64,000 nt of DNA, taken from contig NW_006889836.1 of the NCBI RefSeq assembly GCF_000231115.1, positions 1 to 64,000 on the forward strand, given 5' to 3'. This document shows positions 2,811 through 64,000 of this stretch, piece by piece (position 1 is the stretch's first letter; each line of letters begins with the position of its first letter). The notes below the pieces were generated by a model. The model was not told the DNA's origin and did no database searches. It was given only the letters and a program-made list of their open reading frames with translations. Made by a program: the position numbers and the translations under genes. The stretch is from Vittaforma corneae ATCC 50505. Its lineage: Eukaryota > Microsporidia > Nosematidae.

Positions 2811-3023
2811 ACTGAAATACAAGCCTAGCACATTGTACATCAACTTCACTGGGCTGATATGATGACCGATCGGTAGACTGTGGATAATGACTCCTGAAGC
2901 TGACCATTTTTGAGAAATAAATTTAGTAGACTGAGTGTATTGTCAACAGCAGTTTATGACACATTTATATGACATAAGTATAGTAAATGTGCTGAGTAAA
3001 GTATGTCCTTGTTTAAATTTATT

Positions 3024-4133
3024 TTATTCATCAAAAACACTAAATATTCTGCTTACTGTGGTAGCTGCAACACTTTTCATGGAAACAGACGCCTTGAGAA
3101 TCCTTATTGCAGCACACAGCCCTTTGCTATCTGCAATTTCACAAAGCTTCTCAACCGCACCATCTTCAATTTCTACATCGTTCGAAGCACAGTAGTTCCT
3201 CAGGATATCGCCTGTTTCTGATGCGGTATACTTATAGAACCTTAAGCTAATCTCACCCGCAACCTGGCGGCTATCTTCTTGGTCAAAAACCAAAAATACT
3301 GTTGGATGTAACATTCCTGAGCATACAGAAATTATACACTTAATCTCATCTTCAGATAGCGCTTCACATCCATCAATAACCAAAACGCCTCTTTCTAATC
3401 CTGCCTTACCCTCTTTTAGAAGCTTAGCTACTTTTTTATCTACTTCGTTTCTAATATACCCATTAATATACACATCTGTATAAAGATATTCTTCGCCGTT
3501 TTCTTTGAAGTTAAGTGTGTCCAACTCATTTAGTGTTAGTGTTGTGTGAACAGTCTCAGTTTTTATGCACTCTCCTTCAGGCAGCTGGATCTTTGGAAGT
3601 AAGTCAAATGCCAAGGATGGGTTCCTTTCGGATAATCGGCCCTGTCGCACTACAAAGCAGCTCTCTTTGTAGATCTTTATGATGTCTCCAACACACACTC
3701 TTTCTCTTTCTAGCTCCTTTCTGATTCTTACTCCAATACCAAACACTGATTCCATATCTCTTGTCTTCAAATGGATCTTACCATTTGACATAGATATGAC
3801 CTCGCCCTCCACGATTTTCAGATACTCCTTTATTGTAACAGCAGTTACGGACCGAATAAGCTTGTGCAGCTTTTGAACACTCAGCTTTCCATCGTCTCTA
3901 ATCTCCTCGGCATCAACAATACAGGACATTGTTCTCCTTTCGTGTACTCCTTTACAAATGAATGTATGTCTTCCTGATCCTCGTGGGCCAAAGACAGTGA
4001 CAACGGATCCTTGGTCTGACTCCAGGATCCTCTTTAGAAGCGGAAGATAGATGCTGGCTCTTCCTGTTGTAAGATATCGCAAACACTCATGTCCAGTCTC
4101 CTCGGAAGACAGCACATTTAGAAGACCATGCAT
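3024..4133 (-). CDS. RuvB-like (RVB1/RVB2 family) protein with degenerate ATPase motifs
   Basis: The RuvBL fold is recognisable, closer to RVB2. It has the OB-like insertion domain (about 104-154: GEVISMSNGKIHLKTRDMES, then VGDIIKI), the segment ECIKTETVHTTLTLNELD (about 188-205), and the block before Walker B (EGKAGLERGVLVID). Family members are AAA+ ATPases of INO80/SWR1, TIP60 and R2TP. The active site is altered: Walker A reads GPRGSGRHT (49-57) instead of GxxGxGKT, Walker B reads VLVIDGCEAL (DG at 254-255 instead of DE), and the sensor-2 region reads GLCAAIRIL, without the usual LRYAIQL arginine. It is 369 aa against about 460, the loss being at the N-terminus and around sensor 1. The start follows GCCCCA. 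The frame is intact, so this is not simple decay. RVB normally forms hetero-hexamers; a catalytic partner would have to lie elsewhere. Confidence 0.8.
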   Translation of the reverse strand: MHGLLNVLSSEETGHECLRYLTTGRASIYLPLLKRILESDQGSVVTVFGPRGSGRHTFICKGVHERRTMSCIVDAEEIRDDGKLSVQKLHKLIRSVTAVTIKEYLKIVEGEVISMSNGKIHLKTRDMESVFGIGVRIRKELERERVCVGDIIKIYKESCFVVRQGRLSERNPSLAFDLLPKIQLPEGECIKTETVHTTLTLNELDTLNFKENGEEYLYTDVYINGYIRNEVDKKVAKLLKEGKAGLERGVLVIDGCEALSEDEIKCIISVCSGMLHPTVFLVFDQEDSRQVAGEISLRFYKYTASETGDILRNYCASNDVEIEDGAVEKLCEIADSKGLCAAIRILKASVSMKSVAATTVSRIFSVFDE

Positions 4134-53372: not shown

Positions 53373-54900
53373 ATGGATCTCTACAGCCACCAGAACGCAG
53401 GAAATGTAGAAGAGAGGAAGGACGATGCGTTGAGAACAATTAGAAGCGGAATAAACTTGGTGGGAGACATTCTGAAGACTACGCTTGGTCCCAAAGGTAG
53501 TCTGAAGGTCATTCATGGGAAGGAAACATCGGTGACTAACGATGGCGCATTTATATTGAAGAATCTCATGATCGATAGTGCAAGTGCAAAGATCATTATT
53601 AATAGTAGTATAAATCAAGATTGGGAAGAGGGGGATGGAACCACTAGCATTGCTGTTCTTGTGTCCCTACTCTTGAAGGAAGCTTATCAGCTGAGCATTC
53701 ATTCTACAAAAATAATAAAAGGATTTTCATTAGCTCTTGCAAGATGCCTGGATCTGCTAAATAAGAGAAAATTTACACCAAAGCCAGAAGATATTCGCAA
53801 TTTAGTCAAAACCACCTTAAATAGTAAGGTATTATCTAACAGCCTGGATGTTTTTATCGATATTTGTATTAAAGCTGTTGAAATGTCCGAGGATATAACA
53901 TTGGTTGAAATCATCAAGCTCGAAGGAGATCTTTCGGAAAGTCTTATTGTTGATGGAATTGTGCTAAACAAAAGCATTGATATAGCTCTTGAAAATCCAA
54001 GGATACTTATTGCAAATACCTCCATGGATCACGACAAGATAAAAATTTTCAGTTCCAAGGTTAATGTGGAAAGCATTAAGGAATTAGAAAGAATAGAACT
54101 AGCAGAGAAAGCAAAGATGATCTCTAAAATAGATGCAATGTGTCGTGCCTCCTTCGATTTGTTTATTAACAGGCAGATCATCTATGACTATCCTTTACAG
54201 CTATTGAAAAATAAAGGGCTGTCTGTTATTGAGCATGCTGATTTTGATGGTGTTGAAAGACTTAACAAGGTGCTAGGCGGAAATCTTTTGTCAAGCTTTG
54301 AGGGCATCAAAGAATCTGACTTTGGAACATGTCAAAAGGTTACTACAGTTAATATTAAGGGACACAAAATGGTAAAGTTCGAAGGCATTAAAAAAGGGCG
54401 CATCTACCATTGTTATTTGCGGAAGTTCTAAGGAAATGCTTGATGAAGCGGAAAGATCTGTCCATGATGCCCTCTGTGTTTTGAAAAGAATTAAAGAGAG
54501 TCCAAATTGTCTGTATGGTGGCGGATGTACTGAAACTGCACTTGCACTTGAGCTGTCAAAGTTTGCTCTAGAAGTCAAAACGAAAGAGTCAGAGGCTATT
54601 GAGTGCTTTTCTAGAGCACTATTGAGCATTCCCAAGATTCTTGCAGACAACTGTGGATTTGATGGCGATGAAGCCAAGTCTTTATTGAAAAATGATCATG
54701 CCTATCGCCGCACTACCTACGGTGTTAATGTAGAAAATGGGAAGACATGCTGTATGAGGGAAAAGGGTGTGATTGAAGGCTTTGAGATGAAAAGGAGAGT
54801 GATAATGGCAGCATGCGAAACAGCACAAGCTATTTTGAAAATTGATGGCCTTGTTACATGCAAGCCCAGGGAAAGATCGCACGATCATGGATGCCATTAA
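53373..54900 (+). CDS. CCT2: CCT chaperonin subunit beta (CCT2), one frameshift
   Basis: Group II chaperonin subunit. First frame: GDILKTTLGPKGSLKVI, TNDGAFILKNL, GDGTTSIAVL, MDHDKIKIFSSKVNV, FINRQIIYDYPLQLL and IEHADFDGVERL, all beta-subunit-like. Second frame: LDEAERSVHDALCVLKR, CLYGGGCTETALALE, IPKILADNCGFDGDE and the end DHGCH (human DHHPC). An extra A in the run of six at 54390-54395 causes the break; with five, the text reads KKGASTIVICGSSKEM. The repaired length is about 508 aa, normal. The start follows CCC directly (cccATGG). Confidence 0.92.
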
Positions 54901-57279: not shown

Positions 57280-57687
57280 ATGGCTAGAGTTAAGCAACTT
57301 GAAGTTAGAGCAGGTGGTAAAAAACCAGCAAGAGTAGCCACAGGAAAATCTACGCCCAGTACTCTCTCACAGACAAAGACTAAGTTTAGACCTGGCGCAG
57401 TGGCACTCAGAGAGATACGAAAATACCAGAAGTCCAGTGATCTTCTCATACGAAAGAGACCATTCCAAAGACTAGTTAGGCATTTGACATCTTTCAACGA
57501 TGAACTGAGATTCCAGTCAGCAGCATTGGTTATTTTCCAGGAGGCTGCAGAGAATTTCTTAACAGGTCTCCTTGAAGATGCATATAGATGTGCTGTGCAT
57601 GCAAAGAGGGTAACTCTGCTTCCTAGAGATATTGTGCTTGTTTATAAAATCAAGTATTCAAAGTATTTTAATACCGCGATGGTCTGA
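57280..57687 (+). CDS. HHT1: Divergent histone H3
   Basis: 135 aa. The core has [49 protein letters not shown] and [12 protein letters not shown]. Gln in PFQRLVR and the short loop 1 are those of canonical H3, not CENP-A. The tail [20 protein letters not shown] keeps K4 but T3 is Val and the ARKS motif with K9 is gone; the second motif is GKSTPS. The C-terminus [16 protein letters not shown] replaces LARRIRGERA. The start follows ACCCC directly. It pairs with divergent H4. Confidence 0.92.
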
Positions 57688-57801: not shown

Positions 57802-60675
57802 TCACAGTGTGAATTTTTTTTTAAATTTTCTAAGAGTATCGATTGCCAATATTAAAACTGCAGAACCTGCTGGGAAAAGTAACGACAGCAAATTTGGTCG
57901 TTTGATCAACAAAAACGTTTCAAAGAACGGTGCGAAAATAATAAGAGTGGAAAGTGCTATGCCGATTATTGTGAATACGACTATCTTGAAGTTTTTAAAG
58001 AATCTTTGAAAAAAATATTCTTTGTCACGTCGACATACAAGCATGTTTGCAAACTGGCAGACCATTAACCCAAGAAAATACGTGCTTTGTCCTCTAAATA
58101 CAATAGCGAGCTGCTCCTCATAGTCTATTATGCTCCCATCAGCTAATCTAAGATCTGGTGATTTGTATTGAAAATATGTATTTGCCGAGAAGAACATTTT
58201 TGAAAAAGGAATGTTGTTTGAGTATAGCACCGAATAAAAGGCTAGCTCACACCCAATTGATGAGATTAATCCCGCTTCGATAATTGACCAGGAAAGGATA
58301 GTTGTGCTGTACATTATGCCGTTACTCAATACACCCATCATGTCGCGAATAAAACGTTTAAACTTCTGGATTGGTCCCAGCTCTTCAGCTAAATTTCCCA
58401 ATGACCAAGCATTGTTTTTGCACTGCCTCGGTGGCTCTAGCAAAAGATTAAATTCGGGGTCTTCAAATGAAAAAAACACTGCTGGAATCACCTCGACTAG
58501 ATAATTCAAAAATATAAGTAAAATAGGCGACAGCGGCATTGGCGTTCCTAGGACGACATAAAGAACAAAAGGCAATAACTGTGGACTAATGTGCATGAGA
58601 ATATACCTAATCGACTTCTGCAAGTTGATAAAAAACAGCCTGCCCTCTTCGAGGCTATAAATAATATCATCAAATTTCTGAGGATTGAAAACCATAGAGC
58701 TCGCTTCTTTGCAAATACGACTTGAATCCTGAAAACAGACACCAATATCTGATTTGCTTAGAGCACGCGAATCGTCCATCTGTGACCCGACAAAACACAC
58801 AACCTCACCGTTCTGCTGTAAATCATTCACAACTTCAGACTTTGAGTCCGCATTACATCTGTAAATGATAAACTTGTCTCTTTGGATAAACAGTCTTTTT
58901 AATTCTGCATCAAAGTTCATATACTGCTCTGCTTTTATTATATGGCCCGTCGCAGGCTCATCTATTTTTAGAAATTGGTCATCTCTTACAAACTTCTCTC
59001 TAAGACCCAGAATGTTTCTGCTTGAGTTCAGCTTATTCTCCGAATGTGTGTCTGTGGCTATTGAAAATTTAATGCCTGCATTTTTGAAAATATTTGATAC
59101 CAGTGGTAAATCAGATTCTGGCATCTCTTGCAAAAAATACACACAAACAAATGTCAATCCTTTCATTTTAAACGTCTGCTCGTTCTTGCCAAATGATCGA
59201 TAGGCCAATGCAACACTATCATACCCTTCAATTTTCATTTTGTGGTGCAATGTTATAGTTTTCATTTTTTTGCTGAAAATAAGCTTTTTCTTGTTCTGGT
59301 CTACGAAAGACTTGTTACATACCTTTAAAACCGATTCTACAGAGCCGGTCACATAGATTGATTTAAAATCACTTTCATCCACAATTGTGCCATTTAGATC
59401 TTTCAACCTTACATCCTTGATCTTTGTGGCAACACGAGTGTGGTTGGCAAAATACTTGCAACAAATATCTCCCAGTGTTTCTAATGGAAGATAATAAGCT
59501 CTGTTATGGTGCTGGTCTTTTGATGAGCTTATTAGTTTTGTCATATACCCTATTTTCTGTAGAAATGATAACGAATCTTCATTTTTATCAATAAATGCTA
59601 ATTCAACATCAATCAGATCCTGCCCATTGTACACATATGAGCATGCAATATTTTCACTAGGAACAAGTGCGCTTTTCTCGGCAAGTATTCTCGTGACCAA
59701 TCCTAGTTTTTCAATAGATGCAACGTCTCTAATATAAATATTCTTTTCGCTTAATTTTGAACCTGCGGAGAATAGCAGCAGCTTAACAGTAGACGGAATT
59801 CCCTCAGGGATCAACGTAATTAAGACCGACACCGTGAGATCAACAGCATTGAAGAAGGTTATTCCTGTTGTCAGGCCGATCAGAATCAAAGCCATACTCA
59901 ACAGTAATCCAAAAACCAATGAGCCTACAAAAAACAAAGTCATTTCTGAGTATAGTTCACTTTGGTATTTCCTTTTATAAAACATATTTCTGTAGATTTC
60001 AGCAATTTTTGTATCGTTTCCAATTCGGACAACTACAGCCTTGCCCCTTCCACCTACAATTCTATCTGAGCTCAAAACGACATTATCTGATTCTTCAAAA
60101 ATATCTTTGTGCTTTGTATGTGTTCTTTTGAGGTTCTTCACGCCAAGCTGGCCGATGCTTCGCTCTATTTCAACATTGTTTGACTTCACAAGAATGGCAT
60201 CAGCTCCCACAGTATCTCCCTTTTTCAAATCCAAAACATCTCCAGTTTTAATTAATTCCCTGTCTATATGAACAATATGATCTTCGTTAACGATCCGGCA
60301 ATCATGCGAGTCTAGCCGTTGTTTGTAAATTCCATTGATTTTTGACTCTTCAAACACTTCAAAGATCGTTTTAACAGCCATTATGCAAAGTGTAGACAAG
60401 AATACCAACAGGTGGCATGTTTCCTCCTCATTAAATTCGTAAACAACGACTAGAAATGCAGCGCATAGCAGAGAAAGCATATTCACGGGTTCTAGAATTG
60501 TTCCAAATGCTAGATGCATCAAGGAATAGTCTCTTTTTGGAAAAATAATATTATTGCCTCTCGAGGGATCATTTAGAACGACAGCATTATTAAGGGAAGC
60601 GTATGATTTTCTGCTTATTTCCAGGATTCCATATTTATCCAGGAGCTTTCTAATAGGTAGTTTGTGGTCGTTCAT
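57802..60675 (-). CDS. P2C P-type ATPase homologue lacking catalytic motifs (pseudo-pump)
   Basis: 957 aa, with the fold and length of Na,K/H,K-ATPase alpha subunits. M4 keeps PEG (290-292, LIPEGIPSTVKLLL; Na,K: PEGLLATVTV), and the C-terminus keeps QFANMLVCRRDKEYFFQRFF (Na,K: QWADLIICKTRRNSxFQQG), so the subfamily is P2C. Key catalytic motifs are lost: CSDKTGTLT reads LAEKSALVP (331-339), with Glu333 for the phosphorylated Asp; TGES reads IGQL (174-177); TGD reads ATD (540-542); GDGVND reads GSQMDD (630-635); KGAPE reads TGSVE. It cannot form the usual aspartyl phosphate. The intact frame and conserved membrane parts indicate selection for another role. No CCC precedes the start. Confidence 0.88.
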   Translation of the reverse strand: MNDHKLPIRKLLDKYGILEISRKSYASLNNAVVLNDPSRGNNIIFPKRDYSLMHLAFGTILEPVNMLSLLCAAFLVVVYEFNEEETCHLLVFLSTLCIMAVKTIFEVFEESKINGIYKQRLDSHDCRIVNEDHIVHIDRELIKTGDVLDLKKGDTVGADAILVKSNNVEIERSIGQLGVKNLKRTHTKHKDIFEESDNVVLSSDRIVGGRGKAVVVRIGNDTKIAEIYRNMFYKRKYQSELYSEMTLFFVGSLVFGLLLSMALILIGLTTGITFFNAVDLTVSVLITLIPEGIPSTVKLLLFSAGSKLSEKNIYIRDVASIEKLGLVTRILAEKSALVPSENIACSYVYNGQDLIDVELAFIDKNEDSLSFLQKIGYMTKLISSSKDQHHNRAYYLPLETLGDICCKYFANHTRVATKIKDVRLKDLNGTIVDESDFKSIYVTGSVESVLKVCNKSFVDQNKKKLIFSKKMKTITLHHKMKIEGYDSVALAYRSFGKNEQTFKMKGLTFVCVYFLQEMPESDLPLVSNIFKNAGIKFSIATDTHSENKLNSSRNILGLREKFVRDDQFLKIDEPATGHIIKAEQYMNFDAELKRLFIQRDKFIIYRCNADSKSEVVNDLQQNGEVVCFVGSQMDDSRALSKSDIGVCFQDSSRICKEASSMVFNPQKFDDIIYSLEEGRLFFINLQKSIRYILMHISPQLLPFVLYVVLGTPMPLSPILLIFLNYLVEVIPAVFFSFEDPEFNLLLEPPRQCKNNAWSLGNLAEELGPIQKFKRFIRDMMGVLSNGIMYSTTILSWSIIEAGLISSIGCELAFYSVLYSNNIPFSKMFFSANTYFQYKSPDLRLADGSIIDYEEQLAIVFRGQSTYFLGLMVCQFANMLVCRRDKEYFFQRFFKNFKIVVFTIIGIALSTLIIFAPFFETFLLIKRPNLLSLLFPAGSAVLILAIDTLRKFKKKFTL

Positions 60676-61255: not shown

Positions 61256-64000
61256 ATGAGCGAGATCATCTTGTTACAAACCCACATCGATTACATGCAG
61301 GACAATTTATCTCTGGATATAACAGCACCAACCATTACAATATTTGGAAATACAATGGACACTACTCCAATCCAAGTTAGGGTAGGGGACTTTATTCCCT
61401 ATTTATACATTCAGCCATCAGTTGAAATTTCGGTAGACGCGCTTCAGAGCTTTATTTTAGGAAATTTTGCAAAGGCAAAGTGCCTGGGCATTGAAAAAGT
61501 GTACAAACAGAGTATTTATGGATACAGTGATAAGAAGTCAGTGTTTTACAAAGTATATTTCAACAACCCCAGCTCTTTCAGATCTGCCAAGGCATTTTTT
61601 GAAAACGGCATAACTTTGGAACAGAAAAAAGTCAAATTTAAAATATTCGAAAGCAACTTCCCGTACATTTTAAGATTTATGAATGATCTCAACCTGTCGG
61701 GTATGAGCTATCTTAGGGTGAGGAATTATAAAACAGAGTCTACAGATCCTTTTGTAATTTCTACCGAATCTTCGTTTATTGAACAGCTACCATTTGAAGG
61801 AGAATATAATAAAAGTTATACCATTGAAAATTTTAAGCTTTGATATTGAATGCTGCTCAGAAACACAATCCTTTCCCGATTCTAAAAAGGATCCTATCAT
61901 TCAAATAGGAAACAGTGTTGGAAGATATGGCGTTTCAGGGCTCTCAAGAACCATATTTTGTCTGAAAGAGACTGCAAGCATTCCTAATTCCAATGTTTAC
62001 TGGTTCGAGACGGAAGAAGAGTTGCTAAATGCTTGGAGAGAATATTTTCTTGAAACGAACCCCGATATCGTAATTGGATATAATATTAAAAGCTTTGATT
62101 TTTCATACATTCTTGACAGAGCTGAAATATTGAGGCTAAAGGATTTTGGAAGACTTGGAAGAACTGATAAAGTTAGCAGAGTTGTTAATAGACAGCAGTC
62201 CTCGAAGATGTTTGGTACCTTTGATGCAAAGGACATCAATATTGAAGGCAGGCTGATTTTTGATCTACTTCACGTAATAAGAAGAGACCATAAATTAAGA
62301 AGCTACTCTTTAAACTCTGTTTCTGTCCATTTTCTAGGAGACCAGAAGGAAGATGTGCCACCATCTTCGATGTTTGACCTACAAAATGGCAATAAAGAGA
62401 CAAGGGCCAGAATAGCATCGTACTGTTTGCATGACACATATCTACCAATGCAGATTTTTGATAAGCTGAATGTTCTCATAAATTATTCGGAGCTTTCCAG
62501 GGCAACATATGTTCCTATTGATTTTTTCTCAACTCGGGGCACCTCTATTAAGGTTCTAACGCAGATATACAGAGAGTCCTCGAAGCATGGCTACCTCATT
62601 CCGGACGTAGAAGTAACAGATGAGTATGTTCCATATGAGGGCGGATTTGTCATGGATCCAATAAGAGGATTTTATAGCGACCCTATCACTGTACTAGACT
62701 TTACGTCACTTTATCCATCGATCATGATCAGTAAAAACCTATGCTATACAACCTTGCTCACAAAAGAGCAGTATGACAAGGTCGGAGGCATAAAAACACC
62801 CACTAACAATTACTTTTGTTCTGCAAGCACTAAAGAAGGTATCCTGCCTCAAGTTTTGCGAAATCTGTTAAAAGCAAGAAAAGAAGCTAAGGCGTTGTTC
62901 AAAGCATCTACAGATCCCATTATTAAGAGGAGTCTTGATGCAAGACAATATGCTCTGAAGATTTGTGCCAATTCACTGTACGGATTTACAGGTGCAACCG
63001 TAGGTCAGCTGCCCTGCATTGAGATTTCCCAGAGCACAACCGCCTTTTGGTAGAGACATGATATCAATGACAAAGAAATTGATTGAAGACAATTTCAATC
63101 TTAAAAATGGATTTACGCATGATGCGCAGGTTATTTATGGCGATACTGATTCTGTGATGATTAATTTTTCTGAAAAGGACCTGGAAAAGGTTTTTGAAAT
63201 ATCCAAAAAAGTGAGTCAGTTTGTATCCGACAAATTTGAAAAGCCCATCTCACTGGAATTTGAAAAAGTCTATAGTCCCTATCTTCTTATCAATAAAAAA
63301 AGATATGCTGGACTGGTTTACACAAATCCACAAAAGCCAGACAAAATTGACACAAAAGGAATTGAAACTGTTCGAAGAGATAATTGTGAGCTGGTCAAAA
63401 CCGTTATTGAGAATTGCCTGAACAAGATTCTCTTTGAAAAGAATCTTGAGGCTGCCAAGAACTATGTGAAAGATGTTGTTAGGGATTTGTACACCGACCA
63501 GATTGATTTAAGCCAGTTAGTCATTTCCAAAACATTTACAAAAAGCAATTACACGACAAAACAAGCACACACCGAGCTTGCAGAGAAGCTTAGAAAACGC
63601 GGAATAAGTGTTGGAATTGGCGATCGCATTCCCTATGTCATTGTAAAAGGAGATAAGAAAATGGCAGCATATGAAAAGAGTGAGGATCCAGTCTATGTTC
63701 TTGAAAACAACCTCCCAATTGACAAGGAGTATTACATTGAACAGCAGCTTGTCAAACCTGTGCAAAGATTATTTGAGCCGGTGATGGAGAATGTTTCTTC
63801 GCTGTTCCATGGCGAACACACAAAAGTAATATCCAGTGGTGTAACAATGCAAGGGCCAATGAATATGTTTGTAAAAACAAAAGATGAGTGTGTTGGATGC
63901 AAGAAGCCCGGCACAATACTTTGTGCTGCATGCCGTCCGAATTTCCCCAGCTTATTCATGGCCATTCAACACCAGTTCAATGAAAAAACAAAAAAATTTA
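61256..64000 (+). CDS. POL3: DNA polymerase delta catalytic subunit (POL3), partial, two frameshifts
   Basis: Family B replicative polymerase. Exo I reads LSFDIECCSE (D and E present). The polymerase motifs are DFTSLYPSIMI (A), CANSLYGFTGA (B) and YGDTDSVM (C). The C-terminal cysteine cluster begins CVGCKKPGTILCAAC near 63895. The gene runs off the window. Frames change at A4 (61811-61814, one extra A; NIIKVIPLKILSFDIEC in the second frame) and at T4 (63045-63048, one extra T; TTAFGRDMI after repair). The start is at ATG 61256 after AGCCCAG, giving a short N-terminus compared with other POL3 proteins. Both breaks fit homopolymer errors. Confidence 0.95.

Follow-up and report, generated by a model that had tools for sequence, protein, structure and literature searches.

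P-type pumps are textbook phospho-enzymes, and the best-matching described relatives of the protein considered here are the P2C ATPases, i.e., the Na,K- and H,K-ATPase alpha chains (NCBIfam model TIGR01106). The protein is encoded in a 64,000-nucleotide stretch of the Vittaforma corneae ATCC 50505 genome (contig NW_006889836.1, positions 1 to 64,000; hereafter, the window). It is like the P2C pumps in its predicted fold, in the N-terminal DHKL...KYG stretch, in the PEG of membrane helix M4, in the Q..N/D of M8, and in its C-terminal region, but it differs from them in lacking the phosphorylation Asp, TGES, GDGxND, and the Gly-Asp of TGD and in having a cation site with fewer acids. A second comparison is provided by CATP-1 of C. 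elegans, a Na,K-type pump for which, in the available text of PMC11631496, a D-to-E change at the phosphorylation Asp was designed as a pump-dead allele and a pump-independent role is debated; the natural CATP-1 differs from the V. corneae protein in retaining its DKTGT-type Asp, D409. The Na,K-ATPase fold is also able to conduct, because the title of PDB entry 9vj0, which contains Na,K-ATPase and palytoxin, states cation channel formation. Our preferred reading, to which we assign a probability of about 0.5, is that the V. corneae protein is a conserved pseudo-pump derived from an ancestral P2C ATPase and kept for an ATP-independent function of its membrane domain and cation pocket. The gene is as follows.

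57802 to 60675 (stop codon included), minus strand: pseudo-pump gene, encoding a 957-amino-acid P2C (Na,K-ATPase alpha-like) protein

Translation of the minus strand from 60675 to 57802 gives 957 amino acids with zero internal stops, and the open frame around them spans 967 codons. A preliminary description of this DNA had reported an unbroken 957-residue frame without giving its strand, and this holds on the minus strand. Plus-strand coding of the region was rejected, as the frame from 57802 is full of stops. The 30 hits obtained from 5.8 billion proteins searched were the query, eight full-length relatives (47-81% identity), and 21 pumps that are more distant. The query and its eight relatives form a family in which every member is full length (957-981 amino acids) and pairwise identity is 43-84%; the one relative that is named is the hypothetical protein GINT2_000395 of Glugoides intestinalis. 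The 21 comparison pumps are not all P2, as one is named a magnesium pump and another cation-transporting ATPase E. The highest-scoring intact relative found is P0010, which is P2C-like, is 24% identical over 99% of the query, and has all motifs intact.

The pseudo-pump is a P2C homologue by descent and by predicted fold, and it is not a P-type ATPase by defining chemistry. In a Pfam scan of the V. corneae protein (P0001), the E1-E2 ATPase A domain and the cation-ATPase C-terminus were detected, while neither a HAD/P domain nor a nucleotide domain was. The C-terminal family PF00689 is above its cut-off in P0001 and is found at E<=0.1 in all nine family members, and thus the Na,K-ATPase-like C-terminus described earlier is real. 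The N-domain family PF13246 is present in the precomputed annotation of five of the nine members and was absent at E<=0.1 when all nine were rescanned. In PDB listings, the top 36 rows are all Na,K- or H,K-ATPase alpha chains, with a best E of 1.4e-53 (2.8e-72 with a profile), and the N-terminal stretch MNDHKLPIRKLLDKYGI of the pseudo-pump, compared with MDDHKLSLDELHRKYGT, is consistent with P2C. Three of the nine members (P0001, P0007, and P0009) were scanned with NCBIfam models, and TIGR01106 ranks first for each of them, although at 191, 156, and 192 bits, respectively, they miss its curated cut-off of 946 bits; the catalytically intact P0010 is also below that cut-off (817 bits). The same three proteins, with 76, 83, and 88 bits, pass the cut-off of the general P-type model TIGR01494 (62.3 bits). 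Structure prediction, suggested earlier for the P domain, yielded a whole-length P2C fold: an AlphaFold model from 30 sequences has a predicted local distance difference test score (pLDDT) of 82, against 46 with an input of 9 sequences, and a predicted template modelling score (pTM) of 0.79, and it aligns end to end with Na,K-ATPase.

The catalytic motifs were read from alignments with intact pumps, one of which took 4 of the 21 pumps and another all 21, and 27 canonical catalytic positions were scored. The features concerned, all on this gene, are listed here.

60145 to 60156, minus strand: IGQL (residues 174-177), the A-domain TGES loop, which is degenerate here and varies within the family
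59659 to 59685, minus strand: LAEKSALVP (residues 331-339) replacing CSDKTGTLT, with E333 (59677-59679) at the phosphorylation Asp
59161 to 59640, minus strand: N (nucleotide) domain, residues about 346-505 with hand-drawn borders, 23 of 160 positions invariant, KGAPE Lys lost
59125 to 59127, minus strand: E517, a Glu replacing the Asp of DPPR (Glu in 9/9 of the family, Asp in 20/21 distant pumps)
59047 to 59058, minus strand: ATDT (residues 540-543) replacing VTGD, with T541 kept and the Gly and Asp lost
58840 to 58842, minus strand: K612, the P-domain Lys, kept in 9/9 of the family and 21/21 distant pumps
58771 to 58788, minus strand: GSQMDD (residues 630-635) replacing GDGVND, with S631 at the Mg-binding Asp and G630 and D635 kept

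The position of the phosphorylation Asp is occupied by Glu in all nine family members and by Asp in all 21 distant pumps. In GDGxND, all nine have Ser at the first, Mg-binding Asp, whereas this Asp and the whole motif are present in all 21. The preliminary description had read both replacements correctly (DKTGT as E-K-S-A-L with E333, and GDGVND as GSQMDD). Two other readings stood in part. The Gly and Glu of TGES are present in 21/21 distant pumps, and the loop is lost and variable in the family, as claimed; however, the counterpart given as IGQL is not exact, being Q176-L-G-V according to MAFFT and G175-Q-L according to phmmer, with the motif lost under both. Similarly, the Gly-Asp of TGD is intact in 21/21 distant pumps, and the Asp position is Thr or Ile in 9/9 of the family, so the loss of the Gly and Asp stands, but the reading of TGD as ATD is one residue off, because VTGD aligns with A-T541-D-T and the Thr is kept. 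None of the nine members has the Lys of KGAPE, which 18 of the 21 distant pumps retain. Across the 27 canonical positions, five keep the canonical residue in every member (G444, T541, K612, G630, and D635), five are uniformly replaced (E333, L337, V446, E517, and S631), and 17 are not invariant; only T541, G630, and D635 survive in 9/9 from among the TGES, TGD, and GDGxND residues. The claim that every catalytic motif is lost was thus slightly too strong. We take K612 to be equivalent to K691 of Na,K-ATPase. ATP-driven transport by the pseudo-pump is very unlikely because the nucleophile, the Mg ligand, the dephosphorylation loop, and the nucleotide-site Lys are all gone together. The catalytic loss is ancestral to the nine family members and is neither decay nor sequencing error, because the replacements recur in the eight other full-length proteins.

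The cation site is preserved. By equivalence with Na,K-ATPase, we take it to consist of E291 in M4, H695, I696, and Q699 in M5, N724 and E728 in M6, and Q874 and N877 in M8; these eight positions and the region borders used below were set by hand from Na,K-ATPase numbering and alignments.

59800 to 59808, minus strand: PEG of M4 (residues 290-292), with the cation ligand E291 kept, in 9/9
58579 to 58593, minus strand: M5 cation-site residues H695 and Q699, each invariant in 9/9
58492 to 58506, minus strand: M6 cation-site residues N724 and E728, each invariant in 9/9, with letters also seen in intact pumps
58045 to 58056, minus strand: M8 cation-site residues Q874 and N877, each invariant in 9/9

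The PEG of M4, which had been described as kept, is indeed retained at residues 290-292 in all nine members. The pocket still resembles a cation site because seven of the eight positions are invariant, and at those seven, one or more of the 21 intact pumps have the same letter as the family. Site rates were estimated under LG+G4 and compared with random draws of positions. The eight cation-site positions have a mean rate of 0.24, compared with 0.77 for membrane positions (P=0.0001) and 0.57 for positions drawn from matching helices (P=0.0008). The seven polar ones have a mean rate of 0.22, whereas the 64 polar residues of the membrane part average 0.60 (P=0.0003). The 27 catalytic positions show no special constraint, with a mean rate of 1.00 vs 0.98 for the whole protein (P=0.56), and the 17 non-invariant ones among them evolve at 1.44; for the five kept and five uniformly replaced positions, rates are circular, as both groups were defined by their invariance. 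As a control, we used nine intact P5A pumps, hand-picked from 120 listed proteins across about 50-100% identity, and here the 23 motif sites are invariant with a mean rate of 0.20 vs 0.99 for the P5A protein.

The gene as a whole has also been maintained. Between Vittaforma and Glugoides, the pseudo-pump has diverged by 0.87 substitutions/site vs 0.56 for the intact P5A, which is about 1.5x faster; the corresponding identities are 55-56% for the pseudo-pump and 67% for P5A, with 62% for a second Glugoides P5A copy. We infer that a neutral gene would keep neither its frame nor alignable sequence over this distance. Purifying selection on a non-pumping role, as proposed earlier, is therefore supported by nine proteins that are full length, 43-84% identical, and all without the phosphorylation Asp. 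The rate data lean, without settling the function, toward one in which the cation site is used; the preliminary description had listed chaperone, channel, sensor, and scaffold.

We next consider the other pumps of the organism, using the V. corneae genome assembly (2.9 Mb, 35 contigs). A profile of the A domain finds the pseudo-pump, one P5A with all motifs, and two genes resembling P4 flippases, which were typed by eye without a profile. With the C-terminal cation-ATPase profile, the pseudo-pump gene is the sole match, although split or masked genes could escape profile searches of this kind. The proposed check for an active P2C paralogue in the same genome thus found none with either profile. 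On this evidence from profiles, the pseudo-pump would be the sole P2-type protein of the genome, with no P2/P3 pump found elsewhere, and hence would not be the redundant duplicate of an active pump. The V. corneae P5A (Spf1/ATP13A1 type, L009) shares the organism and P-type architecture with the pseudo-pump but differs in that its catalytic motifs are all intact and are invariant in nine aligned sequences including itself. Glugoides intestinalis has two P5A proteins (P0042 and P0048, with 67% and 62% identity to that of Vittaforma) vs the one from the V. corneae A-domain search. One Na/H exchanger was found in the V. corneae genome, and profiles for Ion_trans_2 channels and Na/Ca exchangers gave no match there, other channel families being outside this search. 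The beta-subunit family PF00287 had no match in the V. corneae genome, nor in any of 14 control genomes.

If the preferred reading is correct, an ancestral P2C (Na,K/H,K-type) ATPase would have lost ATP-driven phosphorylation before the nine known members split, while the pocket formed by M4, M5, M6, and M8 would still take up a cation. Without a phosphorylation cycle to alternate the gates, the conformation would be set by occupancy or by a partner on the cytoplasmic head, and the outcome would be a passive or ligand-gated cation conduit, or a cation sensor. Microsporidia live in the host cytosol, which is rich in K+ and poor in Na+ and Ca2+, and life there would make Na/K pumping dispensable. 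Cation binding, any conductance or sensing, the location of the protein, and its lack of ATPase activity are all inferred. The stronger claim that, in one microsporidian lineage, a whole P-type pump has turned into an ATP-independent cation channel or sensor, giving up phosphorylation with the cation site under strong selection, is tentative, and we regard it as rather unlikely on balance.

Several observations weigh against a pump kept for its cation pocket. At the eighth cation-site position, 696, which we take to be N776 of Na,K-ATPase, the family has Ile or Val, a letter found in 0/21 intact pumps. The Na,K-ATPase site acids E779, D804, and D926 presumably correspond to Q, N, and N in the pseudo-pump, and with three acids replaced by amides, cation binding may be weak. 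M5-M6 is the most invariant region of the pseudo-pump (32/65 positions), but it is also slow in the P5A control (41/71 invariant; mean rate 0.51 vs 0.58 in the pseudo-pump), and because of this, the site-by-site test is more telling than the regional figure. The membrane-to-cytoplasm ratio of invariance is 1.69 in the pseudo-pump vs 0.90 in P5A (Fisher P=0.013), which is only a modest difference obtained with hand-drawn borders. Packing by itself can suffice to keep membrane residues invariant. The KGAPE Lys is missing in 3/21 other pumps too and so is weak evidence by itself. Lastly, the P domain is not free, as the five uniform replacements are fixed in 9/9 and a pure conduit has no obvious need of them; they indicate that the head is also kept for a task, perhaps to hold a locked state or to offer a binding surface.

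In the main rival, a serious contender that we nevertheless place clearly below even odds, the protein is a structural pseudo-pump that acts as a scaffold, chaperone, or regulatory subunit (e.g., for a P4/P5A pump, exchanger, or channel), and the pocket is kept for helix packing. The uniform replacements in the P and N domains suggest a maintained cytoplasmic surface or fixed conformation, as this rival would have it, and the slowness of M5-M6 in P5A and an M7-M10 region about as conserved as that of P5A (50/167 invariant vs 43/164) are in its favor. However, constraint is focused on cation-site residues beyond helix- and polarity-matched positions, a pattern not expected from packing alone. 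The available text of PMC11631496 can be used on both sides, as it cites Ruaud and Bessereau (2007) and Doi and Iwasaki (2008) for roles that Na,K-type pumps have independently of pumping but found pump activity important for CATP-1 in its own assay. We favor a conduit or sensor over a scaffold because the cation pocket is kept beyond expectation. An improbable variant is a locked E2-like sensor, where the E333-K612 pair would mimic a phosphorylated P domain, hold the membrane part outward or occluded, and report ions or the host cytosol. An active ATPase with unusual chemistry and Glu as the nucleophile is very hard to credit: the gene is conserved and E333, K612, T541, and D635 are fixed in 9/9, but it would have to work without the Mg-binding Asp, TGES, the KGAPE Lys, and the Gly-Asp of TGD, which have all been lost together, and the 17 non-invariant catalytic positions evolve faster than the protein average. 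Least probable of all is a decaying pseudogene or assembly error: some other genes of the same assembly do have broken frames, but here there are nine full-length frames with identical replacements, which exclude a read-consensus error, no broken frame or intact motif (including DKTGT) among the eight relatives, a Vittaforma-Glugoides distance only about 1.5x that of P5A, and a codon composition inside the range of 25 other window genes compared (GC content at third codon positions, 0.38).

The known spread of the family is narrow. No relatives were confirmed in searches of bacterial and archaeal genome contigs and of viral contigs, and a profile search from the family alignment added no member among the 7994 candidates scored, those with the most shared words, which does not by itself show absence elsewhere in microsporidia. 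In the same protein database, a P5A search (120 of 1343 listed) found P5A in no fewer than 15 named genera of microsporidia; the pseudo-pump, by contrast, is seen in V. corneae, Glugoides, and seven further records. It may be restricted to one microsporidian lineage or too diverged to be detected elsewhere. In the available text of PMC13174016, Microsporidia sp. MB, Vittaforma, and Glugoides are placed in the Enterocytozoonida clade, and NCBI taxonomy lists Vittaforma and Glugoides under different families. Two P5A proteins of microsporidian type (P0039 and P0102) are filed under the caddisfly Arctopsyche grandis and the louse Menopon gallinae, and these records are probably microsporidian contamination of insect assemblies.

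The neighborhood of the pseudo-pump gene is an ordinary housekeeping stretch, with a histone gene at 57280-57687 and DNA polymerase delta fragments at 61256-63053. The latter are two separate open frames on the plus strand, 61256-61843 and 62208-63053, with a gap between them. A CCT/TCP-1 chaperonin subunit, also on the plus strand, is split across frames 53373-54431 (Pfam positions 2-341) and 54436-54900 (347-489), through either an indel in the assembly or a genuine change of frame. Of 25 other window open reading frames, chosen by hand from 56 listed, 18 have a CCC motif no more than 15 nucleotides from the ATG, and none precedes the pseudo-pump; we draw no inference from this. Elsewhere in the genome, one of the P4 flippase-like genes (L011) consists of two overlapping frames, 723-2975 and 2935-3945, and there are five matches to MscS-type mechanosensitive channels (contigs C1, C2, C8, and C11).

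In the open-licence literature, judged by titles and abstract openings, there is no paper on a dead P-type ATPase family, microsporidian or other, subscription papers being mostly outside this set, and the available text of a comparative microsporidian genomics paper (PMC3879972) has no match for the ion-transport terms tried. A family in which the chemistry is erased and the cation site is preserved is a natural separation-of-function experiment, and it could test whether the Na,K-ATPase fold without ATP conducts, senses, or scaffolds. It also bears on how parasites living in the host cytosol dispense with ion pumping.
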